Origin: Leptospirales bacterium
Lineage (GTDB): Bacteria > Spirochaetota > Leptospiria > Leptospirales > Leptonemataceae
NCBI GenBank assembly: GCA_019694655.1
Contig: JAIBBN010000006.1
Location: 62,001 to 126,000 of the forward strand
DNA length: 64,000 bases
Direction of reading: 5' to 3'
Under the pieces are notes generated by a model. The model ran no database searches. It was not told where the DNA came from and saw only the letters and a program-made list of their open reading frames with translations. This document shows, piece by piece, positions 19,480 through 32,915 of the stretch. How positions within the stretch are numbered: position 1 is the first letter of the stretch; every line of letters begins with the position of its first letter. The position numbers and the translations under genes were made by a program.

Positions 19480-19944
19480 TCACTCCAGGGCATGCTTGCC
19501 GGCCGGCAGCAACCAGGCTGCAAGGCCCAGCAGCGCAAAAAAAGCGCAGGCCAGGATTGAGAATCGAGTAAGGAAATTCTTTCCTTCGTTCTCTTCTGTT
19601 TCGTCGCCAAACAAGCGTGCATAGACAACGCCGCCGTCGTCGCGGTAAAAGCGAGCTTCGGCATTTTTCCCTTCCGTGTTGCGATGAAAGAATTGAGACG
19701 AAACGCGCTCTACGCCAATGACAGAGACGCCGTCGTAGATCCCGTGATAGCTGAAATAATAGCGCTGGCCGAGAAAATCTTCCCTGGTTTGCGCCCGGCT
19801 CAAGGTTACAAAGCCGCTAACTGCATGGGCCTCTTCCCTGTGGCGTAAATTGGCCAGCATCGAATCGCGCACGGTTGAAGCGACAAACTGGCTGCCAAAG
19901 GCGACGCTGCACAGTAGCGCGCCGAGGCGGACGGCGGCAATCAT
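19480..19944 (-). CDS. Small two-TM membrane protein
   Basis: A 154-residue protein with a hydrophobic N-terminal segment (MIAAVRLGALLCSVAFGSQFV), a soluble beta-rich domain of about 95 residues (YYFSYHGIYDGVSVIGVERV) and a C-terminal transmembrane helix (ILACAFFALLGLAAWLLP). The layout resembles DUF3592-like proteins, but I cannot confirm that. The ATG at 19942-19944 overlaps the stop of the MBL-fold gene (ATGA), and its own stop lies in the ribosome binding site of the glycerate kinase gene, so all three are translationally coupled. Confidence 0.7.
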   Translation of the reverse strand: MIAAVRLGALLCSVAFGSQFVASTVRDSMLANLRHREEAHAVSGFVTLSRAQTREDFLGQRYYFSYHGIYDGVSVIGVERVSSQFFHRNTEGKNAEARFYRDDGGVVYARLFGDETEENEGKNFLTRFSILACAFFALLGLAAWLLPAGKHALE

Positions 19945-20906
19945 GCCTCGCCTACGCGCAACTGCAGTCCTTCGCGAGCCATCAGAATGCGCGGGCGATC
20001 CACTCCGAGGGCGGCCTTGTGTTCCTGAGCGCTGCAATAGTTCTCAAACAGACGCTGGTCGCTGTAGGAGGGTTCGTGGTGGGTGAGAATCAGATTCTTG
20101 ACTCGCCACTTGACGGCGCAGTTGATCGCCATCGTCAAACTGGTATGGCCCCAATCAAACTTCGTAAAATGATCATCGAGAGTGTACTGCGCGTCCATCA
20201 CCAGTAGATCAGCGCCGCTGAAAAAGGCATGCCGGTCATCCATGGTTTCCAGGTCCTGACCGGTGAATTCGGCATCTGTAGCAAAGATGAAGGTCCGGCC
20301 ATTGCGCCGAAAACGATAGGCGAAGCTGCCGCCGGGATGCTTGAGCGGGCAAAAGTCAACAGTCATTCCGCCAGGCGCCTCAACCGGCGCTCCATCGTTC
20401 ATCACGTAGAAGTACTTGCGCGCTGCTGTTTGCTCAAAGGGAGCGGGGAAGAACATATCGATCTGCTGGCGAATCAATCGACTCTCCAGGTTCTCGATGG
20501 GCGAGTAGAAGTGAATGGTATTCCCGGGGATATAGATCGGCTTGAAGAAGGGCAGGCCCTGGATATGATCCCAATGCGTATGGGTCAGGAAGATGTGGAT
20601 TTCTCCCTCGCCACGGCCGCAGGGCCCCTGCATCAGCTGGTCGCCCAGGGCGCGAATGCCGGTGCCACAATCGAGAATACAAATGGCTTCGGAGCCAGGC
20701 AATTGCACAGAGGCGCAGGTGGTGTCGCCGCCGTACGTTTGACCGAGATGCGGCGGCAGCTTGCGCAAAAAGTCGCCTATCTCAGCTTCGTCGCGAAGTC
20801 CGCTGCGCACTGCCTGCAGCAGAACGCCTTGCAACTTTTCGCGATACTCGCTGTTTCGCAGGGGAGTCGCGATCGATCCCCGGACTCCCCATAGCGTTAC
20901 CAGCAT
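19941..20906 (-). CDS. MBL-fold metal-dependent hydrolase
   Basis: A 321-residue metallo-beta-lactamase-fold protein. The metal-binding motif THTHWDHIQGLPFF, an upstream ILDCGTGIRALG strand, KHPGGSFAYRF, the ATDAEF metal ligand and LTHHEPSYSD near the end give the order expected for RNase Z / phosphodiesterase-like members. It opens directly with MLVTLWGVRGSIATP, typical of a widespread group of uncharacterised MBL-fold hydrolases found in spirochaetes and proteobacteria. The substrate is unknown; phosphodiesterase activity is possible. It heads the minus-strand operon that runs through mqnD, and tRNA-Pro lies just upstream. Confidence 0.85.
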   Translation of the reverse strand: MLVTLWGVRGSIATPLRNSEYREKLQGVLLQAVRSGLRDEAEIGDFLRKLPPHLGQTYGGDTTCASVQLPGSEAICILDCGTGIRALGDQLMQGPCGRGEGEIHIFLTHTHWDHIQGLPFFKPIYIPGNTIHFYSPIENLESRLIRQQIDMFFPAPFEQTAARKYFYVMNDGAPVEAPGGMTVDFCPLKHPGGSFAYRFRRNGRTFIFATDAEFTGQDLETMDDRHAFFSGADLLVMDAQYTLDDHFTKFDWGHTSLTMAINCAVKWRVKNLILTHHEPSYSDQRLFENYCSAQEHKAALGVDRPRILMAREGLQLRVGEA

Positions 20907-20934
20907 CAGCCTGTCTCTTTCGCCAGGAAAACTG

Positions 20935-21006
20935 TCGGGATGAGTGGATTTGAACCACCGACCCCCGCGTCCCGAACACGGTGCGCTACCCCTGCGCTAC
21001 ATCCCG
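20935..21006 (-). tRNA. tRNA-Pro (anticodon CGG)
   Basis: Read on the minus strand, a 72-nt cloverleaf forms: acceptor stem CGGGATG/CATCCCG with discriminator A, D-arm GCGC-AGGGGTA-GCGC, anticodon stem CCGTG/CGCGG with loop TTCGGGA, and T-arm GGTGG-TTCAAAT-CCACT. The anticodon CGG reads the proline codon CCG. The C1-G72 pair is the usual prokaryotic tRNA-Pro identity feature. The 3' CCA is not encoded and must be added by nucleotidyltransferase. Confidence 0.95.
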
Positions 21007-21096
21007 AACACCTGCGCTGCGGCTGGCGCTGCAACGCGTGCTGGGCATCCTCCGTACCGGTTTCGGTCTGGCAAGGCAATTCCGGGTCCTGGTCCC

Positions 21097-21168
21097 GGAG
21101 CCCCGCTAATCCTCAGCCAAAGCGGTCCATCCTGTCTGCGATTTTTCACTGGACCCTGGCGGGGCTCC
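21097..21168 (+). promoter_or_regulatory. Nested inverted repeats in the leader of the 126-residue gene
   Basis: A perfect 10-bp stem GGAGCCCCGC (21097-21106) / GCGGGGCTCC (21159-21168) encloses a second stem GGTCCA (21124-21129) / TGGACC (21150-21155). The structure ends 18 bases before the ATG of the downstream gene and is followed by AAAAAAATT, so it is not an intrinsic terminator on this strand. It could be a structured leader or cis-regulatory RNA. Confidence 0.4.
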
Positions 21169-21186
21169 AAAAAAATTGGTCAGGCA

Positions 21187-21567
21187 ATGGAGTCGAATGT
21201 GCAAGATGCCCTGGTTTCGCCGGCAAGCCTCGAGGAGGTCGAAAGGCGCTTTGAGGGCCTTTCCGACATCACGGACACGGTGGCGCAGGTCAATCAACCC
21301 TACGAGAGCGATCTGGACCGGGCTTTTGAATCGATGGAAAGCTTCATCGGCGAGGCAAGGGGCTGGGAGCTGTCGGCCATGGATGCCGCCGGGCTGCGCT
21401 GTTACCTTAGCCACATGTCTTTCCACCGCGAAATTGTGGCCGAAATCATCGCCGAGGCGCGGCGCGTTTTGCTGGATGATCGTCGCCACTACGTGAAGCG
21501 CCTGGTAAATTACCACCGGGACTTCTCGCGCTGGCTTAGCGGCATTGAAAAACGCTACGCTGCCTGA
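21187..21567 (+). CDS. Small helical hypothetical protein
   Basis: A 126-residue acidic, mostly helical protein (MESNVQDALVSPASLEEVER...). It has no signal peptide, membrane segment or cysteine motif, only a single Cys in GLRCYLSHMSFHRE. The segment EIIAEARRVLLDDRRHYVKR has heptad-like spacing and may form a helical bundle. No family is recognised. The ATG at 21187 is preferred because an earlier in-frame extension would run through the tRNA gene; the ribosome binding site is weak and sits next to the nested hairpins upstream. Confidence 0.6.
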   Translation: MESNVQDALVSPASLEEVERRFEGLSDITDTVAQVNQPYESDLDRAFESMESFIGEARGWELSAMDAAGLRCYLSHMSFHREIVAEIIAEARRVLLDDRRHYVKRLVNYHRDFSRWLSGIEKRYAA

Positions 21568-21695
21568 GAGCGTCGGACAATTTCCAGCTCAGGGAAGCCC
21601 GCCAGGCGGATGGAAAATGTTGAAAATTCCGCCGCTTTGGGCCGTCGTACCCAGGACGGGGCAAAGTTGCCCCGTCCAATAAAGAGGCATCTATT

Positions 21696-22586
21696 ATGAA
21701 ACAAGCAGCATGGGCAATCGCAGCTGTGGCAGTCGCTTTTGCACTGACCGCCTGCGGACAGAAAAACGAGCAATCCGCCGGCCAGAGCGGCGCGGTCAAG
21801 ACGCTGGTCAGTAACATGGCCGGTCAGGTACAGATCGAGCGGGGCGGCCAGATTACTGCAGCCAGCATCGGTCAGGAACTGACACAAAGCGACATCATCA
21901 TCACGGGCGTCGACTCCTCTGCTGACCTGGCGATCCAGGGCTTTGGGGTGGTGAAGGTTGGCGCCAGCACTCGCCTGGCAATTCAGAAGCTGAGCCAGGA
22001 CGCCAGCGCGGCACAGGCCGAGCTGAAGCTGGAGCGCGGCAATGTTGCTTCCTTCATCAATCGTCAGAATGGCCGCGACAGCTATGCAGTGCATACGCCG
22101 ACGGCTATTGCCGGCGTTCGCGGGACAGCCTTTCTGGTATCTGTAGACGGTTCGGCGGCGCGGCCCCAGGTCAAGGTCGCAGTGCTGGACGGGCAGGTTG
22201 CCGTTCAATTGCCGGGTCAGGAAGAAGTGGTTATCGAGAAAAACTCGCAAATCGCCATCGACGGATTTCAGCGCATGACCCGCGAGATGGTACGACCGCT
22301 TTCGCGAGACTCGCTCGATGCCATCAAGAAGCTCGCTGTATTTCAGCGCAGCAATGTAATGGAATTTAACGCTCTGCTTGATGAGGCGCGTCAGGCGACG
22401 CCGGAAATTGTCGCCATGGATGTTGGCGCTTCAGCGGAGCAATCTGTGAGCTCGCGGGAGAGCCGCGATGGCGGTCTTGACGCCGTTGGCGCTGCTCGCC
22501 AGGCTGATCTGTCGCGAACGCTGCGTCGCGATACGCAGGGCGATCCGATCCAGCTCCAGCCAAATCAAGGCTACGCACAGCAGTAA
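21696..22586 (+). CDS. FecR-domain lipoprotein
   Basis: A 296-residue exported lipoprotein: signal AIAAVAVAFALTAC with the acylated Cys at residue 20. A FecR domain occupies about residues 35-180, with LVSNMAGQVQIERGG, the SSADLAIQGFGVVKVGASTRL strand pair, the core VHTPTAIAGVRGTAFLVSVDG, and VAVLDGQVAVQLPGQEE. The last 100 residues are helical and disordered. In spirochaetes, FecR-domain lipoproteins are common envelope proteins not tied to iron uptake. The ATG has AAAGAGG nine bases upstream. A strong terminator follows at 22616-22646. It is the first gene of a run of five envelope genes. Confidence 0.88.
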   Translation: MKQAAWAIAAVAVAFALTACGQKNEQSAGQSGAVKTLVSNMAGQVQIERGGQITAASIGQELTQSDIIITGVDSSADLAIQGFGVVKVGASTRLAIQKLSQDASAAQAELKLERGNVASFINRQNGRDSYAVHTPTAIAGVRGTAFLVSVDGSAARPQVKVAVLDGQVAVQLPGQEEVVIEKNSQIAIDGFQRMTREMVRPLSRDSLDAIKKLAVFQRSNVMEFNALLDEARQATPEIVAMDVGASAEQSVSSRESRDGGLDAVGAARQADLSRTLRRDTQGDPIQLQPNQGYAQQ

Positions 22587-22615
22587 GAATTTAAGAGCGA
22601 TCTTCGGACTGCTCG

Positions 22616-22646
22616 GAAGGCGGGGTCATCCCCGCCTTCTTTTTTT
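22616..22646 (+). terminator. Rho-independent terminator after the FecR lipoprotein gene
   Basis: A perfect 10-bp stem GAAGGCGGGG / CCCCGCCTTC with a TCAT tetraloop is followed by seven T residues. It is the clearest intrinsic terminator in the window and separates the FecR gene from the next envelope gene, which must have its own promoter or receive read-through. Confidence 0.92.
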
Positions 22647-22746
22647 GCAGCTCGACTCATGATTTGATGGACCTGGCGTCGCTGGACAGTCTCCACTGAC
22701 TGTGCGTCGTCACACACGCGAAATGCTTGTCGGAGGGATCTTAACG

Positions 22747-24417
22747 ATGGTGTTCAAGCCGCTGCAGAGCGTTGCAAAATGGGCCGGAGCATTGTGCATT
22801 GGCGTGCTGTTGGCTTGCCGTAGCGTTGGCCCCATTCAAGACCTCAGCGCCGCGCTGGAAGAGTTGCCTGCTCTTCGCTTCACTGCGATCAGCGGCGGCA
22901 GCGAGCAGTCCGCAGGCGCCGTAGATTTTCGTCTGCGTGAGGCGCCTCGTGAAATTACGCAGCTGAGCCTGCTTCCCCTCCGTGATTCTGTGGATGGCGA
23001 TCTATCTGAAGGAGCTCGAACCATATTGATGCTGCGCCTGGAGCGCGCCTTAAGAAACAGCGCAAAAGCGCGGTTTACTATGCTGCCGCCGGGCGCGGCG
23101 CCCGATAGCGAGGAGACGCGCGCACAACTGCGGCAGGAAGAAAGCGACGCCCTGCTGGTTCCGCGCGTGGAGTTGGCCGAAGGCGCCCGACGCGGCGAAC
23201 TTGTGGTCGCCTTTCTGGACGCCTTCAACGGCCAGCAACTGAGCGAACTGCGCGTCGCATTTGAACTGGAGCCTCCTGCCAGCGACGCCAATCGCGTGGA
23301 TCTTGCTGGCAGCGCCTCAGGGTATCGCATCCTGGAAATGCAAAGCAGCGGCGGGATCAAGGTCGGCGCGATCGATGCCGCCGCATTGAATAGCTGCATC
23401 TCTGCCACGGTAAGTGGTACGCTCACGGCGCTGTCCACCAGCGGCGACACTGAAGTGATCCTGCTGCGCGGCAACGAACGCAAATCCCTGGGCTCGGCGC
23501 CGGTTCGCGCCTATGCCTTGCGCGAGGGAAAGGTGCGCCTGTTGATGCGTCGTAACGGGCAGCCGGAACAGAGTTTTGCACTGCAAATACGGGCCGGTCA
23601 GGGATCGCTGGCGGCGGCTACCTGGCCGGATGAAGGCGGCGCCACGGATCTGGCAATCCTCTCCTCGCCGGCCAACTTACGCATTGCCGTGGACGGTCAA
23701 TTGCGCGGCCAAACGCCGCTCTACCTGACGGACATCCAACCAGGCTCGTACCGCCTGGAGCTTTCGCAGTCGCGGGAGCAAGGGTCTGCCATAGTGCAAG
23801 CCGAGGGCGCGGTGCAGGCTGGCGTCGGCGGCGCCGCTCGCGCTTTCTTCATATATCTTAGCGAAACCTTTCAGTCCCCTCTGGCCAACGGAGATCTCTG
23901 GAGTCTGGCGGCCCAGGAGGGCGCGGTCAGTCTACAGACTGGCGAGGGCCTGGGCTTTCGCGGCGAAGGCGCCAGCGGAGGGGCCTGGCTGGGTCTGGCT
24001 ACCCAGTCCGCAATTCTGGAAGATAAATTTGATGCCGAAATCGATCTGCTGGAAAGCGAGGGCGGAGTATTGCTCGCCGGGCTGTACAATCCACGCGGCG
24101 CCTCGCTGATGCTTCAAATGCGCGGCGCTTCCTTCACCCTGCAACGTTTTGCGCTCGGTCGGCCGGAGGGCGCGGCCCTGGCCTTTGCACCTTTGAGGCA
24201 GCGTGAAGACCATTTGCATCGGCTGCGTTTTCAATTCGATAAGAACGCTCAACTGATCCAGGTATTCCTGGACGGCGACGAAATTTACAGCGGACCCTGG
24301 AGCGCCGGCGAAGCGCGCCTTGCCTTGCTCAGTCGCGGGGGAAGCGCGGATGGTCGGCGCCTGGTCAAACGCCTGCGCATTCGGACCGGCGCCGGCTTGA
24401 ATCAGGATCGAGAATGA
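22747..24417 (+). CDS. Large lipoprotein with PEGA domain and C-terminal lectin-like domain
   Basis: A 556-residue lipoprotein (signal ends GVLLAC, Cys at residue 24). Residues about 70-175 (ITQLSLLPLRDSVDGDLSEG and after) resemble the start of CsgG-like or curli-assembly lipoproteins, though loosely. A PEGA-type beta domain lies near 300-375 (ILSSPANLRIAVDGQLRGQT, then LTDIQPGSYRLELS). The final 170 residues look like a concanavalin/LamG-type sandwich (VFLDGDEIYSGPW). The ATG at 22747 has GGAGG 12 bases upstream. It overlaps the TPR gene by ATGA, so the two are made together and probably work together at the envelope. Confidence 0.75.
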   Translation: MVFKPLQSVAKWAGALCIGVLLACRSVGPIQDLSAALEELPALRFTAISGGSEQSAGAVDFRLREAPREITQLSLLPLRDSVDGDLSEGARTILMLRLERALRNSAKARFTMLPPGAAPDSEETRAQLRQEESDALLVPRVELAEGARRGELVVAFLDAFNGQQLSELRVAFELEPPASDANRVDLAGSASGYRILEMQSSGGIKVGAIDAAALNSCISATVSGTLTALSTSGDTEVILLRGNERKSLGSAPVRAYALREGKVRLLMRRNGQPEQSFALQIRAGQGSLAAATWPDEGGATDLAILSSPANLRIAVDGQLRGQTPLYLTDIQPGSYRLELSQSREQGSAIVQAEGAVQAGVGGAARAFFIYLSETFQSPLANGDLWSLAAQEGAVSLQTGEGLGFRGEGASGGAWLGLATQSAILEDKFDAEIDLLESEGGVLLAGLYNPRGASLMLQMRGASFTLQRFALGRPEGAALAFAPLRQREDHLHRLRFQFDKNAQLIQVFLDGDEIYSGPWSAGEARLALLSRGGSADGRRLVKRLRIRTGAGLNQDRE

Positions 24418-27400
24418 TGAGAGGCGAACAGGTGTATTCCGCAAATTCTCAACGTTTCCTTCAATTGCTGCTGGCGATTGCCTTTGCCGGCGGCGCCAGC
24501 GCTTGCGCCATTCTGCAGCCAGTTCCCGAACGGGTCTCCAGCGCACGGGAGAGCCAAACGACGGTGCAAATTCAGGACCCGGTGCGCTACCGGCAAGCCC
24601 TCGATCTTGTGAATCAGGGCAATCGTAGCTTTGTACGTCAGGATTTTGGCGCGGCCTTGCAATTTGCAGAGCAGTCGCTGGCGAAACACGAAAACTATCA
24701 GGCTTATTACCTGCGCGGGATAGCTTATCAGCGTCTGGGCAAGTTGGACGAATCTCTGGCGGCGCTTCGCGAAGCGGAACGATTGGCCGGCGGAGATGAG
24801 CAAGTGCTGCTGACCCTGGCAACGGTGCTGATTGCGCGCGGCGAAACGGAGCAGGCGCAACAGCGCTACCTGCGCTTGATGGAGCTTTATCCGCAAGAGC
24901 CCCTTTATCCTTATCGCGCTGGCGTCACCTACAAAAATATGCGTCAGTACGAGAGGGCCTACGAGTTCCTGCTGAAGGCGGATCAGCCAAACTTTCAGTT
25001 CAGAGATCAACTGTATCTGCAGCTGGGCGACGTCTGTCTGGAGTTGAAGCGTTACGACGAATCCCGTCAGTTCTTTCAGAAGGCGGCTCAGGCCAATCCG
25101 CAACTGGCCGATGCCGCGCGCGGCGGACAGGCCACGCAAACGGCGCAACTGCTGGAGCAGGGCAACCGCGCCCTTGCGGCTCGAAACTATGAAGAGGCCC
25201 TCAGCAGCTACCGCGCCGCACGCGAACAGGCCCCGGACCAGGCGGCGCCCTATTTGCTGAGCGGAACTGCGTTGCTGGCTCTGGAGCGACCACAGGAAGC
25301 AACCGCCGATCTTTTGAAGGCGCTGGAATTGAATCCGCGCGATGCGAAGACCTACTCTTTGCTTGGCGCCGCGTATCAGAAGCAGCGTCGCTACAGGGAG
25401 GCGCTGGAGACTCTGGAGCGCGGCATTCAGGTGGCGCCGGACAGCGCAGATCTCTTCAACAAGATTGGTCTGGTCCGCCGCGATCGCGAAGAAACGCGCG
25501 CCGCGATTGACTCCTTCAATCGCGCCCTGCAGGTGCAGTCGGACTATCAGCCGGCGCGGATCAATCTAGCTTTCACATTGCTGGACGACCATCGTTACTC
25601 CGATGCGCGCCGCGAGTTCGAGGCGGCGCTGCGTCAGGACCCAAACAATGAAGAGCTCAAGCGCGGGCTTGGCCTGATTGATGTATATACCATTCTCGAT
25701 CGCGGCAATCGACATTTCCAGGACAATCGTCTGCCTGAGGCGCTGAATGAATACCGGCGCGCGCGGCAACTGCGCGCCGACCTGCCCATCGTACACAATG
25801 CCATCGGCCAGGCTGAGTTGGCGCGCCGTGATGGGCGCGCCGCCGAAAGCAGCTACCGTGAATCGCTTAAGCTGGATGCCAACGGCGTGGCGGCCTTGCA
25901 AGGGCTGGCGCGCGCCCTGGCTCTGCAGCGGCGCACCCGGGAGTCAAACGAAATCATCGCTCGACTTGGCGCACTGACCCGAAACGACGCCGGCGCCGCG
26001 CTGGCCATTGGTCGCATTCGCGAGGACCAGAATGATCTGGCCGGCGCCGAACGTCACTACCAGGAATTCCTGCGGCGCAATCCGGACGCAATCCCCGTGC
26101 AGCGTCGTCTTGGATTGGTCTACTACCGTCAGGCGCTTGCCGCCAACGATCGTGAGCAGTATCCAGCAGCCTTGCGGTTGTTCGAAAAAGCGCAGGCGGC
26201 CAATCCGGAGATCCCGCAGCTGCCCGCAGCGCTGGCTACTGTACGTGAAAATATCCGTTATGCTGCCCTGCTGCCGCGCCTGAAGAGCGCCGAGGCCCTG
26301 TTCAATCGCGGGGAATTCGAGCGCGCCCTGCCAATCTACCAGGAGGTATATCGCGATCTGAAACGGCCGCTAATTGCTGTAAAGATTTCGCAGTGCTATA
26401 TCGCCATGGGACAGGAGCAGCGCGCCTTCCAATCGCTGGAGCAGGCCGAAGCCGAAAATGGCGCCGGAAATGTCGCTGTGGAAATTTCCGAAGCGATCTA
26501 CAACTTCGCTTTGCGCCGCGATGAGATGGATCGGGCGGAGCGAGGCTTCGGAGAGATCGTTGAGCGTCATCCAGATGCCTACTACTCGTGGTATAAATTG
26601 GGAGTGATCCATCTTCATCGGCGGCAATTCAGCGATGCCATCGCCGACTTCGACCGGTCGATAACTTTCAAGCCCGATTTCGCGCCGGCCTACATTGCAC
26701 GAGGCGTCGCTCGCTACGAGGGCGGCGATCATGATCGTGCCAGACAGGAATTCGAAGAGGCGATTCAACGCGATTCGGAAGCAGTGCTGGCTTCGTTCAA
26801 CCTCGGCGTCTACTTCTACAATGCGAGCATGATCGATCGTGCTGAGAAAATCTTCCGCGATCTGGTGCAGGATTTCCCGGAGTTTCCTGACGCGCGCTAC
26901 CAGCTGTCTTTTATTCTATTTCAGCGCGGCGAATTGCCGGGCGCTGAAAGTGAATTGCGCGCCGCGCTGGAACGCAAGGATGACGATCGATATCGCTGGG
27001 CTCTGGCGCAGGTGCTGGACAAACGCTTTCAGCAGAGCCGTAATCCCGGCGATGGCGAGGCTGCACGCAGCGCCTACGAAGACGTTATCCGCCGCTTCCC
27101 CGGCTCGCGCTTTGCTGGCGAAGCCAGGCAACGCATCATGACCTTGCGGCCAGGCGAGCGCATTGTCCAGGCCTATGCAGCCGATGCCAGCGGTCGAATC
27201 GTAGGCCTGCTGCGCGGCGCGCTGATAGTCTGGCGCGACCGGCAGATCCTTGCTCTTGATGCAGCCTCGCGGCGACAGCTCTGGGTGCTGCGGCTTGATG
27301 AAAAACCGCGCGCAGTGGGCGCCGACCAGACCCTGGTTGTACTTGGCGTCGGACAAATCGCGCTCTACGATTTGAGCGATGGCAGCCTGTTGAATAGCTT

Positions 27401-28082
27401 CGCAACGCCGCGCGAGTCGGAACAGCTTTACGCCAGCGGCAACCGTATTGCTGTGCTGGCGTCCCCGGCCCGCAGGACGGCGCCCAGCGCTCTGAAGGTC
27501 TACGATAGCCGCGGCGAGCTGCTTGGCGCCGGCCTTCTACCCGCCGGCGCACGACTGGCCGCCGTTTCGGGTCATATATTGCGTGTTGAGCGCAAGGGAG
27601 CGCGCGCTGTGGTCGCCCGCTTGAAATTTGTAAGCGGCCTGATTCAGGATGATGCGATTGTGGAGGCTCCCTTTGAACGGCTGCGTGCGGCGCCGTTGGT
27701 CAGCTCACAGGGCGAGATGCTGGTGCTGTCCAATGCCGGAGAACAGTCGATCGCAATCAATGTCAGGGAAATGGCAATGACGGCCACAATTGCTCTGCCA
27801 GTCGGAGTCGAGCAGGCCCGACTGCAACGGGGCGAACCTGCGCGCTGGATCGTAGTTCAAGGGCAAGACATTCGTGTGCACGGCGATGGCGGGCGAGAGC
27901 TGCGACGGGTGCGCTTGCCGACGCCTCCCGCCTCTGCTGCGGCGGTCGAACTGCAGGGCGCTGAGTCGGTCATTTACGTTGGACGCGACGGAGCGCTCCG
28001 AAGCATTGGCTCCAATGGACAGGAAGAGTGGAAGACGGCCTTGCCTGAAGAGCGCGCCGCCGCCTACACCCTGTACTACTGA
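24414..28082 (+). CDS. Giant TPR lipoprotein with C-terminal beta-propeller
   Basis: A 1,222-residue exported protein. The signal sequence ends GGASAC (possible acylated Cys at residue 31; the lipobox is loose but acceptable for spirochaetes). Residues about 50-905 consist of tandem tetratricopeptide repeats, with typical units such as ALQFAEQSLAKHENYQAYYL and ATADLLKALELNPRDAKTY. From about residue 915 the sequence changes to beta-rich repeats (GALIVWRDRQILALDAASRR, IALYDLSDGSLLNSF) that look like a PQQ/WD-type beta-propeller. This layout suggests a scaffold holding an envelope complex together. It is coupled to the upstream PEGA lipoprotein (ATGA) and followed closely by the HAMP-only protein. 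Confidence 0.85.
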   Translation: MMRGEQVYSANSQRFLQLLLAIAFAGGASACAILQPVPERVSSARESQTTVQIQDPVRYRQALDLVNQGNRSFVRQDFGAALQFAEQSLAKHENYQAYYLRGIAYQRLGKLDESLAALREAERLAGGDEQVLLTLATVLIARGETEQAQQRYLRLMELYPQEPLYPYRAGVTYKNMRQYERAYEFLLKADQPNFQFRDQLYLQLGDVCLELKRYDESRQFFQKAAQANPQLADAARGGQATQTAQLLEQGNRALAARNYEEALSSYRAAREQAPDQAAPYLLSGTALLALERPQEATADLLKALELNPRDAKTYSLLGAAYQKQRRYREALETLERGIQVAPDSADLFNKIGLVRRDREETRAAIDSFNRALQVQSDYQPARINLAFTLLDDHRYSDARREFEAALRQDPNNEELKRGLGLIDVYTILDRGNRHFQDNRLPEALNEYRRARQLRADLPIVHNAIGQAELARRDGRAAESSYRESLKLDANGVAALQGLARALALQRRTRESNEIIARLGALTRNDAGAALAIGRIREDQNDLAGAERHYQEFLRRNPDAIPVQRRLGLVYYRQALAANDREQYPAALRLFEKAQAANPEIPQLPAALATVRENIRYAALLPRLKSAEALFNRGEFERALPIYQEVYRDLKRPLIAVKISQCYIAMGQEQRAFQSLEQAEAENGAGNVAVEISEAIYNFALRRDEMDRAERGFGEIVERHPDAYYSWYKLGVIHLHRRQFSDAIADFDRSITFKPDFAPAYIARGVARYEGGDHDRARQEFEEAIQRDSEAVLASFNLGVYFYNASMIDRAEKIFRDLVQDFPEFPDARYQLSFILFQRGELPGAESELRAALERKDDDRYRWALAQVLDKRFQQSRNPGDGEAARSAYEDVIRRFPGSRFAGEARQRIMTLRPGERIVQAYAADASGRIVGLLRGALIVWRDRQILALDAASRRQLWVLRLDEKPRAVGADQTLVVLGVGQIALYDLSDGSLLNSFATPRESEQLYASGNRIAVLASPARRTAPSALKVYDSRGELLGAGLLPAGARLAAVSGHILRVERKGARAVVARLKFVSGLIQDDAIVEAPFERLRAAPLVSSQGEMLVLSNAGEQSIAINVREMAMTATIALPVGVEQARLQRGEPARWIVVQGQDIRVHGDGGRELRRVRLPTPPASAAAVELQGAESVIYVGRDGALRSIGSNGQEEWKTALPEERAAAYTLYY

Positions 28083-28123
28083 GGCCGGCCCGGGAAGTAC
28101 GGGCCGCCTGCGGAGGGCAAGCC

Positions 28124-28642
28124 TTGGATCATAATGCTCCGATCGCCGCACGCTGGCGCTACTACGTAGATCGCCCCTTCCAGAATCATATGCTACTGCG
28201 CTTTGCGCTGGTAGTTGCGATGGTGGTTGCCATTGCCCTGCTCGGACTCTGGCTGGTGCATGAAAACTCAGCAGTCCTTCTGCCGGAAGGGGAGGGCGCC
28301 CTCTTTGCTCTGAATGAAGAAGCGGCGGCTGATGGCAGCCCGCAGATGTGCGTGCTGCCTGGCGGCGAGGAACTGCCGGCCATTCGTCCCGGTCGCAGTT
28401 ACAACGCATTTCAACTCTACTGGCGACCGATGGCTGCTGTCAGCGTGGCAACGTTGATTGCCGTGCTGGCTTTTGCTTTCTTCTATTCGCACAGCGTCGC
28501 CGGCCCCATGATCAGCATCAAAAGATCGCTGCGCCGTATCATCGATAGCGGGGAAGCGGAACCCATTCGGATACGCAAGGGCGACAAGTTTCAAGAGCTT
28601 GTTGAATTGCTGAATGAGCTGATCGAAAAGCGGGTCAAATAG
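28124..28642 (+). CDS. Two-TM HAMP-only membrane protein
   Basis: A 172-residue inner-membrane protein: cytoplasmic N-terminus, TM1 (about residues 24-46), a periplasmic loop of about 55 residues with one Cys (MCVLPGG), TM2 (about 102-124) and a HAMP-type helix pair (SVAGPMISIKRSLRRIIDSG, then FQELVELLNELIEK). It stops right after the HAMP helices, with no kinase, methyl-accepting or cyclase output domain. The start is a TTG at 28124, set by CGGAGGG seven bases upstream; a later ATG is out of frame. The gene lies 41 bases after the TPR gene and one base before the HEAT-like lipoprotein gene. Confidence 0.8.
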   Translation: MDHNAPIAARWRYYVDRPFQNHMLLRFALVVAMVVAIALLGLWLVHENSAVLLPEGEGALFALNEEAAADGSPQMCVLPGGEELPAIRPGRSYNAFQLYWRPMAAVSVATLIAVLAFAFFYSHSVAGPMISIKRSLRRIIDSGEAEPIRIRKGDKFQELVELLNELIEKRVK

Positions 28643-28643
28643 G

Positions 28644-29180
28644 ATGATGCAATTTGCATCGCGATCGATCGCTCTATTCTTGCTGGCTGCTGTTCTGTTT
28701 GCGGTTGCTTGCCGAAAACAATCCGCGCAACTCCCGGCCGAGGAGATGCAGCGTCGCATGGAGCTGATTGACCAATGGCAAAGCAGTCTGAAATCTGGCG
28801 ATGCCTCAGCTGGTCGAGCGGCCGCTTTGCTTGGCGGTTGCCTGCGCGATCTCCAGGCGCCGCAGCTTCAGCGCCTGGCATGTGTTCAAGGTCTGGGAAA
28901 TGCGGAATCGCTGTCGCCTGACTCGCCGCTGCGCCGTGCGGCAGCCGCCGAACTCAATCAGTCGATTATACTCGAGCTATCCCTTCGTCGTGATGAGCGC
29001 AACGCCTACGTAGCGCGCGCCGTCGCTCAGAATCTGGGACGCCTGGCGGATCGGCGCAGCTTCGCGCCGCTCTTGCGTTTGATGCGCTCGTCTTACCCGA
29101 CGATGGTCCGGCGCGCTGCGCAGCGAGCGATCAATGAAATTGACTGGCAGCCGCCTCAAGTTTCGCCGGCAAATCCGTGA
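28644..29180 (+). CDS. Small HEAT-repeat-like lipoprotein
   Basis: A 178-residue lipoprotein with signal RSIALFLLAAVLFAVAC (Cys at residue 23). The mature part is helical; residues about 115-165 read like HEAT/armadillo repeats (YVARAVAQNLGRLADRRSFA, then LLRLMRSSYPTMVRRAAQRA). It closes the envelope cluster and begins one base after the HAMP gene. Its end overlaps the convergent NAD kinase gene by 25 bases. HEAT-repeat lipoproteins usually act as adaptors; the partner here is probably another member of the cluster. Confidence 0.75.
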   Translation: MMQFASRSIALFLLAAVLFAVACRKQSAQLPAEEMQRRMELIDQWQSSLKSGDASAGRAAALLGGCLRDLQAPQLQRLACVQGLGNAESLSPDSPLRRAAAAELNQSIILELSLRRDERNAYVARAVAQNLGRLADRRSFAPLLRLMRSSYPTMVRRAAQRAINEIDWQPPQVSPANP

Positions 29181-30959: not shown

Positions 30960-32915
30960 ATGGCGGCCGACAACCAAAATGCTGCGCTCGATCTGGAAGG
31001 CGCCATACGCGTGATGTCCGCCCGTCCGGCGGAGGAGCAGGTTCAGGCTCTCGAATCGCGCGGCGACTTCAAGTTCAGGGGTATTATCAAGGTCTTTGAC
31101 CTGATTCGTGACTGGAGCAACTCCTTCACACAGCGCGGAATTCTGCCTTCCTTCGATCAGCTGGCCAGAGACACGGAGCTGCCGGAGGAGAAGATTCGCC
31201 TCTACCTGCTGGAGCTGCTGGGTCGCGGCTCCTCCAGCGATCGTTACATAGTCTATTTCCCCGCGTTGCAATTTATCGCCGGCGCTGGAGCGCGGATCAC
31301 TTCGATGACCGTCTTCTGTCGGCCGGCCGCGTCTGATGGCGAAACCGCGCGTCGCTATCTGACCATGTACAACAACAAGAACCTGCAGGCGCTGGAAAAG
31401 TGGATTGGCGCACGTACGGCGCAAGACCCGGCTCGAATTCGAGAACAGATGACCAAGGCCATTCAGGCTGGCAAGGTGCGCGAGACCCAGGCGCGCGGCG
31501 AAATTGTAAGACTGTTCTATACTGATTTCGATGATAACCCGGAGCGCAGAAAGGTCGCCTATATGCTCTACGCGCGACCGGTCATTCAAAAGTTGATCGA
31601 GGAGCGAAAGCTTCTCTATTTGCAGACGGAACTGCCGGGAGGACGCAAGATCAATGGCGTTTACTTTCACAACGCACGCGATCTTGAGGAGCGATTCAAG
31701 GCGCTGGCAGAATACTATACGAAACGCATCGATCGGGCGGAGAGCAGCGAGGCGCCGGAACCGGATGCCGTGATGCAACGCCTGCGCGCTTTTAGCGCAC
31801 AGTATGCGAGTCTCGCGGAAGCCGACCAGCAGGTGTATGATGATCTTTTTTTAATTACTCCTGCGATTACGCGAAGTCGCAAAGAGCACAGCGAGCAGGT
31901 GCGACGACAGACCCTCGAACAGGCGCTGGACCAGCTGGCCAAGATCCCGCGTGTCGCCGATGCCACCGCCTTTCGCAACGTCGATTCAGAGACTATGGCT
32001 CAGTTGCGCAATGTCAATGGCGTGCTGTATGCCGAGTATCCCTATCGCGGTCGTATAACTGATTTTTTCTTACACAAGAATATGATCAACGAGGCGGTGA
32101 AGACGGCGCGCGATGCTTTTGACCAGCGTAACGATGATGCGCAGGTCTTTATTCTTTCGGCAATGGGCCTGGAGCGCTTTTTGGATAAGGACCAGTACAA
32201 GGCTTTCCTTGATCTGGAACAGCGAGTGCTTTTCGAGCAGCTGCCGTTGATTGTCCGGCTCTGGCGCATGCTCACCGGTCGTGGAAAGCTGGCGCAAAGA
32301 GAAATAGTCCAGACCAAGCAGAAGGCGGCGGCCGAGCAGCAGCGCGAACTGCTGCGATTGCGAGAGGAAGAAGCGCGGCAAACGCGCAAGAAACTGATCA
32401 GCGAGAGAATGAGCGGCGAGGAAGGCAGTCAGGCTGCAAAATCTTCGGCTACGGAGCGCGGCGACAGCGAAGCCGGCGGCCGCGGCGTTGAAGCTCCGGA
32501 GCCGCAAAGTGAAGAAGAGAAGTATGAGCAGGTACAGGAAGAGCAACGGGCGCGCGATATCCTGAAAAAGATCGTCGATACGCTGGACGCGGCCTGGGAT
32601 CAGAAGCTGCTGCCAAATCGGGAATACGTACTGCAATATGTCAAAGAACTGGATGAGGACAGTCTGATTCTATTCTTGAAAAAGTACGGTCGCAAAGAGG
32701 TGCTCTCCTTCCGGATTCGCAATGATAAGCCGGAGTATGTTTGGCCGATTTTGATCTCGCGCCGCTATCTGCGCCGTTCTGGCAAGAAACTGCTGGCTCG
32801 CGTGCAGGAGGAAGCGGACGCTCAGCGCAAGGCGTCGATGCCCAATCAGGAAAAATTTGACGTGGCCAGTTCGATTGAAGATTTTCTGGGACGCGTTTTG
32901 CCGAAATTAAACTGA
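30960..32915 (+). CDS. Large cytoplasmic protein of unknown function (related to the 667-residue protein at 42.3 kb)
   Basis: A 651-residue soluble protein with no signal peptide. The N-terminal region includes a winged-helix-like segment (ILPSFDQLARDTELPEEKIR, then LYLLELLGRG). Near residue 427 it has LPLIVRLWRMLTGRGKLAQR, then a charged coiled coil rich in Gln/Glu/Arg (about 440-480), a low-complexity linker, and a C-terminal domain from about 534 (ILKKIVDTLDAAWDQKLLPN, then LILFLKKYGRKEV). The same layout appears in the protein at 42348-44351, so the two are probably distant paralogues. No catalytic motif is recognised. The gene ends 24 bases before pyruvate kinase. Confidence 0.75.
   Translation: MAADNQNAALDLEGAIRVMSARPAEEQVQALESRGDFKFRGIIKVFDLIRDWSNSFTQRGILPSFDQLARDTELPEEKIRLYLLELLGRGSSSDRYIVYFPALQFIAGAGARITSMTVFCRPAASDGETARRYLTMYNNKNLQALEKWIGARTAQDPARIREQMTKAIQAGKVRETQARGEIVRLFYTDFDDNPERRKVAYMLYARPVIQKLIEERKLLYLQTELPGGRKINGVYFHNARDLEERFKALAEYYTKRIDRAESSEAPEPDAVMQRLRAFSAQYASLAEADQQVYDDLFLITPAITRSRKEHSEQVRRQTLEQALDQLAKIPRVADATAFRNVDSETMAQLRNVNGVLYAEYPYRGRITDFFLHKNMINEAVKTARDAFDQRNDDAQVFILSAMGLERFLDKDQYKAFLDLEQRVLFEQLPLIVRLWRMLTGRGKLAQREIVQTKQKAAAEQQRELLRLREEEARQTRKKLISERMSGEEGSQAAKSSATERGDSEAGGRGVEAPEPQSEEEKYEQVQEEQRARDILKKIVDTLDAAWDQKLLPNREYVLQYVKELDEDSLILFLKKYGRKEVLSFRIRNDKPEYVWPILISRRYLRRSGKKLLARVQEEADAQRKASMPNQEKFDVASSIEDFLGRVLPKLN

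Follow-up and report, generated by a model that had tools for sequence, protein, structure and literature searches.

Gene content of the locus

The window, a 64,000-nt stretch of contig JAIBBN010000006.1 from a Leptospirales bacterium, belongs to a genome of 3.9 Mb in 33 contigs, which was compared with a set of 48 genomes of the same class. Three families recur below: f1, the window's own family (the window genome and 21 others); f2, a sister family in the same order; and f6, a further family in the same class. The locus carries the following features.

21187..21567, plus strand: U118, a conserved 126-aa protein without a signal peptide (profile A6), the upstream neighbour in f1
21696..22586, plus strand: FecR-domain lipoprotein, LipL45/Lsa33-like (PF04773)
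22615..22640, plus strand: intrinsic terminator 3' of FecR (stem and T-run)
22747..24417, plus strand: PEGA lipoprotein, a distant relative of the LIC10124 family (PF08308, NF047815); a GTG-extended open reading frame starts at 22702
24414..28082, plus strand: 1222-aa TPR lipoprotein with a predicted all-beta C-terminal region (TPR_2, six stretches)
28124..28642, plus strand: 172-aa HAMP protein with a TTG start (hydropathy and hhalign)
28644..29180, plus strand: HEAT-repeat periplasmic protein (HEAT_2)

All five open reading frames of the original prediction (FecR, PEGA, TPR, HAMP and HEAT) are present where it had placed them, and its FecR, PEGA and TPR domain calls are borne out by the Pfam matches. 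Its count of five genes overlooked the conserved sixth frame upstream, U118. The tight coupling that it described holds for PEGA with TPR and for HAMP with HEAT, but not for FecR, which closes with a strong terminator of its own. Likewise, three of its four lipoproteins (FecR, PEGA and TPR) are lipoproteins family-wide, whereas a lipobox in HEAT occurs in the window genome only.

Profile A6 finds U118 in 27 of the 48 class genomes, with an order-wide distribution. The gene adjoins the cluster in f1 and lies beside MBOAT-like genes in f2 (L109, L110 and L119; MBOAT recognised by eye). The protein carries a FHREIVADIIAEAR motif, has no Pfam relative and gave chance-level matches only in the PDB. 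We regard U118 as a loosely attached part of the cluster. A longer, 207-aa reading of this frame (20944-21567) was rejected: its N-terminus is an artefact of the minus-strand tRNA-Pro (cgg) at 20934-21006 that extends U118, and it recurs as a spurious start in relatives.

Two further flanking genes were noted. An MBL-fold hydrolase gene (19941-20906, minus strand) is divergently oriented to the cluster in the majority of f1 genomes; since it turns up again close to TPR in L047 and next to STAS-HAMP-HEAT in L059, its product is a possible partner. Downstream, a 651-aa protein (30960-32915) that matches no Pfam or NCBIfam model is conserved in both f1 and f2 as a neighbour of pyruvate kinase.

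The PEGA and TPR lipoproteins

The PEGA protein matches PF08308 at E 3e-7. Its translation likely starts at ATG 22747, which is preceded by GGAGGG and yields a 24-residue lipoprotein signal; the GTG at 22702 would give an implausibly long one. Residues 39-561 align with positions 1-511 of the 516 in NF047815, the LIC10124 family lipoprotein profile (E 1e-34). The score of 120 bits, compared with 354-399 bits for the f2 PEGA proteins, does not reach the equivalog cut-off of 650, and by these profile scores the window protein is a distant relative of the LIC10124 family, not an equivalog. The lipobox cysteine (C39) is unvarying in the alignment of 19 relatives. A PDB search found no solved relative, and the single-sequence structure model was unusable (pLDDT 33).

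The start of the TPR gene overlaps the PEGA stop by 4 nt, and in most f1 loci the two genes either overlap or leave a gap of no more than 11 nt. The TPR protein matches TPR_2 at E 4e-54, and its lipobox cysteine (C31) is unvarying in 18 relatives. The original prediction had also placed a propeller in this protein, a claim that survives with weak support: the C-terminus has a weak PQQ_2 match (E 5e-4), and a low-confidence single-sequence model of it is all-beta (pLDDT 50), with leading Foldseek matches in the PDB that are largely beta-propellers, BamB among them, at TM scores of about 0.3-0.45. We treat the C-terminal region as a likely beta-propeller.

Several named TPR proteins were considered as identities for this protein and rejected. 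Its matches to PrsT, MamA, PilW, FlcA, LapB and others are generic, and none of them reaches the curated cut-off listed for it; for FlcA the score was 90.6 bits, short of the cut-off of 300. A scan of genome contigs with the TPR protein returned, in other phyla, generic TPR proteins only.

The FecR gene is a peripheral partner

The FecR protein matches PF04773 at E 1.5e-14. It also resembles the Lsa33 profile NF047849 (E 1e-18, 67 bits) and the LipL45 profile NF033165 (E 2e-14, 54 bits), in neither case reaching the curated cut-off (420 and 350, respectively). A lipobox cysteine is found in most of the aligned relatives.

The terminator behind the gene consists of an 11-pair stem with 8 GC pairs, followed by a T-run, and the 40-nt stretch around it has a folding energy of -22.8 kcal/mol. 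A comparable hairpin with a T-run lies 3' of FecR in L035. Given this strong terminator and the like structure in L035, FecR probably has its own transcript, separate from that of PEGA onward. In L037, a 520-codon frame on the opposite strand separates FecR from PEGA. The two genes adjoin in six f1 genomes (G000, G001, G007, G008, G009 and G021) and in two f2 genomes (G023 and G024); in the g5, g10, g11 and g12 genomes, the best full-length FecR relative lies at another location. We take FecR to be a looser, peripheral partner of the four genes that follow it.

A GC-rich inverted repeat without a T-run (GGACGGGGCAA/TTGCCCCGTCC, 21650-21682) lies shortly 5' of FecR and may be a 5' leader structure or the terminator of the upstream gene.

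The HAMP protein and its HEAT neighbour

Hydropathy places two transmembrane (TM) segments in the HAMP protein, at about residues 27-45 and 103-121; the periplasmic loop between them is about 55 residues long. The chain stops directly after the C-terminal HAMP domain and has no output domain. The window copy gave no match to the Pfam HAMP model (PF00672), and the best family member, at 24.7 bits, fell just under the gathering cut-off of 25. Profile-profile comparison with hhalign against 18 HAMP domains from the same genome gave a probability of 91.5% (E 8.6e-7) over columns 104-167, which span TM2 and HAMP, against 0.6% for an unrelated control family, and so confirms the HAMP assignment. Positions GP, DxF and N are unvarying in the alignment, and an N-terminal RWRYYID..FQ motif is conserved. 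Against the PDB, the family found only a weak match to an MCP HAMP domain.

Among the loci examined, no constant effector gene lies beside HAMP. Members of a second HAMP subfamily in f2 are preceded by ECF sigma factor and FecR genes, with all three on one strand (L060:8981-11229 and L061:8025-10241), an arrangement that could represent a sigma/anti-sigma system with the HAMP protein acting in trans. A FecR-HAMP pair occurs in another family (L103), and in L059 a protein resembling STAS anti-sigma antagonists is encoded directly 5' of HAMP. These ECF sigma/FecR and STAS neighbourhoods are the sole hint that may tie this HAMP family to signalling. Another TPR-HAMP pairing was seen in g5, where a small, more distant HAMP-like protein comes after a membrane-anchored TPR protein (L063:5349-9144 and L064:8637-12451).

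The window HEAT protein, which is shorter than its relatives and divergent, matches HEAT_2 at E 1e-5; the same domain is found in 18 of 19 relatives, at best with E 5e-14. Its lipobox (AVAC) is confined to the window copy, and the other aligned HEAT proteins have plain Sec signals (...AFAQES, ...LAAQE). By its signal peptides, HEAT is a family of secreted proteins and not of lipoproteins.

HAMP and HEAT are separated by 1 nt in the window, and their spacing stays between -8 and +12 nt throughout the 18 readable f1 loci. For the HEAT-linked HAMP subfamily, every one of the 29 class loci that could be read has the two genes side by side (18 f1, two f2 and nine f6 genomes); in G029 the HAMP gene lies at a contig end, where a HEAT neighbour is unreadable. 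Outside the class, HEAT stands beside HAMP in four of the 20 HAMP loci examined (L099, L100, L104 and L105), three of them in convergent orientation. On this genomic evidence, HAMP-HEAT is an old spirochaete pair spread across several families.

Four genes are conserved together in the family of the window

The order PEGA-TPR-HAMP-HEAT is identical in all 18 readable f1 loci, the window included; one of these loci begins inside PEGA, and in two the HEAT gene is cut by the contig end. The encoded proteins have diverged widely, with pairwise identities across the f1 loci of 12-98% and mean values of 23% for PEGA and 33% for TPR. Profile searches found no full orthologue of any of the four in G002, G003 and G010. 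Two of these three genomes are less than 90% complete and G003 is 91% complete. In G010, the corresponding locus (L117) is contiguous: U651-UbiE-NADK abut U118 and Lp185, NADK adjoins U118, and the whole block is absent. In the fragmentary G020, the TPR gene is complete and a contig opens with the terminal part of PEGA.

The search for conserved co-occurrence thus returned PEGA, TPR, HAMP and HEAT as genes that are present or absent together in f1 and keep a constant order. Gene order alone is the weaker evidence, because much of the flanking DNA is also syntenic in f1. Evolutionary rates of PEGA and TPR correlate strongly (r = 0.98), but the neighbouring MBL gene correlates nearly as well (0.89-0.91), and we have set this measure aside. 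Constant order, concordant presence and absence, and the absence of the block in G010 together argue that the four genes are a genuine unit, and we consider it very probable that they act as one functional unit in f1. The conserved, undescribed envelope unit of the original prediction therefore stands for these four genes and is weaker for FecR, with its own terminator and its relatives elsewhere in several groups.

Two modules are joined in the four-gene unit

Outside f1, the genes fall into two sets. In f2, FecR, PEGA and TPR occur together in L040 and L047, and PEGA with TPR in L043, L045 and L049; HAMP-HEAT is found at separate loci (L057 and L059). Profile searches of f6 found HAMP-HEAT and no PEGA or TPR orthologues, and this HAMP and HEAT are missing from G025, G027 and G028, which do have PEGA-TPR. 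The lipoprotein module can apparently work alone, given the separate f2 loci and these three genomes. Scattering of the genes in related genomes, named in the original prediction as a refuting result, was thus seen in part: f2 splits FecR-PEGA-TPR from HAMP-HEAT, whereas f1 keeps four genes together. The comparison of gene neighbourhoods indicates that the four-gene unit is built from two older modules, joined in one locus in f1.

Possible function of the unit

We tentatively favour a trans-envelope assembly of the PEGA, TPR, HAMP and HEAT proteins in which a HAMP dimer relays state across the inner membrane, and would put its chances slightly below even. The core of this assembly would be the pair of the small inner-membrane HAMP protein and the secreted HEAT protein, the latter most likely binding the periplasmic side of the former. 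In Leptospirales, the PEGA and TPR(-propeller) lipoproteins occur as a second module, joined to HAMP-HEAT in f1; they would act as a periplasmic protein-binding scaffold that is probably anchored in the outer membrane. HEAT would connect this scaffold to the HAMP dimer, whose conformation would change with the state of the envelope, be it load, substrate or lipoprotein occupancy, and a separate cytoplasmic protein would read the change. In the reverse option, a cytoplasmic state would be sent outward via HAMP and set the scaffold. The physical complex, the outer-membrane placement, the signal with its direction and the cytoplasmic partner are what we infer for this assembly. The passage of conformational changes through the inner membrane, proposed in the original prediction, fits the anatomy of the HAMP protein (two TM segments, then HAMP, with no output domain).

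The main rival is that the f1 locus merely houses two independent pairs: PEGA-TPR, plus FecR, would be an outer-membrane scaffold or assembly factor, and HAMP-HEAT an unrelated inner-membrane pair. We think this possible, if on the doubtful side. It would explain the separate f2 loci (L040/L047 against L057/L059), the occurrence of each pair without the other in f6 and in G025, G027 and G028, and the TPR-HAMP gap, which at 38-212 nt is the widest among the four genes. The concordant presence and absence of all four genes in f1 and the block absence in G010 speak against it, as does the finding that HAMP relatives outside the cluster repeatedly neighbour FecR, TPR-type or STAS genes.

A wider version of the trans-envelope assembly would be an envelope-surveillance system, in which a multi-family HAMP-HEAT relay is coupled to a Leptospirales outer-membrane scaffold (PEGA, TPR-propeller and FecR) and a signal travels between outer envelope and cytoplasm, in the inward direction, by a HAMP protein acting in trans. 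We hold this to be rather unlikely.

It is improbable that the unit is a purely structural tether, with HAMP serving as a dimeric four-helix membrane anchor through which no signal passes. Such a role would suit a protein with no output domain and no constant effector gene, whose periplasmic partners all have binding or repeat folds. Still, the unvarying GP, DxF and N resemble those of signal-relaying HAMP domains, and relatives of the protein lie beside ECF sigma/FecR and STAS genes.

A BAM- or Lol-like system for the maturation of lipoproteins or outer-membrane proteins is quite improbable: the TPR and propeller folds recall BamD and BamB, and BamB is among the leading fold matches, but the propeller model is of low confidence, the cluster has no BamA-like or permease gene, and some relatives lack the cluster. 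A role as a periplasmic-flagella accessory, for example a collar or sheath factor, would agree with the presence of HAMP-HEAT in several spirochaete families and with the sub-threshold FlcA match (90.6 vs 300 bits), yet it is most improbable, as flagellin is present in 48 of 48 class genomes, including those without the cluster, no neighbour of the cluster or of its relatives was recognised as a flagellar gene in the loci read, and the TPR matches are generic.

LipL45-type FecR and the LIC10123-10125 proteins have been detected in Leptospira, and their placement in one unit with HAMP and HEAT would give several orphan families a testable function. For the HAMP-HEAT pair, which several spirochaete families have kept, it also becomes of interest how HAMP can work in trans when it lacks an output domain.

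Comparison with known systems

Af1503 is an example of a HAMP-only membrane protein, and LapD of a HAMP relay. The window HAMP protein shares with them TM helices followed by HAMP, and possibly an inside-out or outside-in relay; it differs in its short periplasmic loop, in its RWRYYID..FQ motif and in that its gene is tightly linked to that of a secreted HEAT protein. With BamB and BamD, the window has in common lipoproteins of propeller or TPR fold. Here, however, both folds would reside in one 1222-aa protein, which has no BamA-type partner and no family match above cut-off.

Like LipL45 and Lsa33, the window FecR protein is a FecR-domain lipoprotein of a kind that is multi-copy in these genomes, serovar Lai having 11 LipL45 paralogues (PMC2780356). 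Its scores are below the curated cut-offs, and it represents a distinct paralogue within the set.

The closest counterpart is LIC10123-LIC10124-LIC10125 of Leptospira interrogans, which encode a FecR protein (PMC9694704), an uncharacterised protein (PMC8847714) that founds NF047815, and a 135-kDa TPR protein (PMC5979558). The locus tag of LipL45 differs between papers, being LIC11643 in one (PMC5553009) and LIC10123 in another (PMC5979558). A literature search found no function reported for LIC10124 or LIC10125, and nothing on the function of the FecR-PEGA-TPR module, on the HAMP-HEAT pair or on this combination of domains. The window and L040/L047 share the order FecR-PEGA-TPR and, as far as names and consecutive locus tags alone tell, LIC10123-LIC10125 is the same three-gene module. 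In contrast to the window, HAMP-HEAT is not adjacent to this module in the Leptospirales sister family examined. The original prediction's statement that no known system has this set holds, within this literature search, for the whole set; it does not hold for the three-gene part, which corresponds to LIC10123-10125, with LIC10124 a named NCBI family. By these comparisons, the parts of the unit belong to known fold families, and one half of it has a named counterpart in Leptospira.
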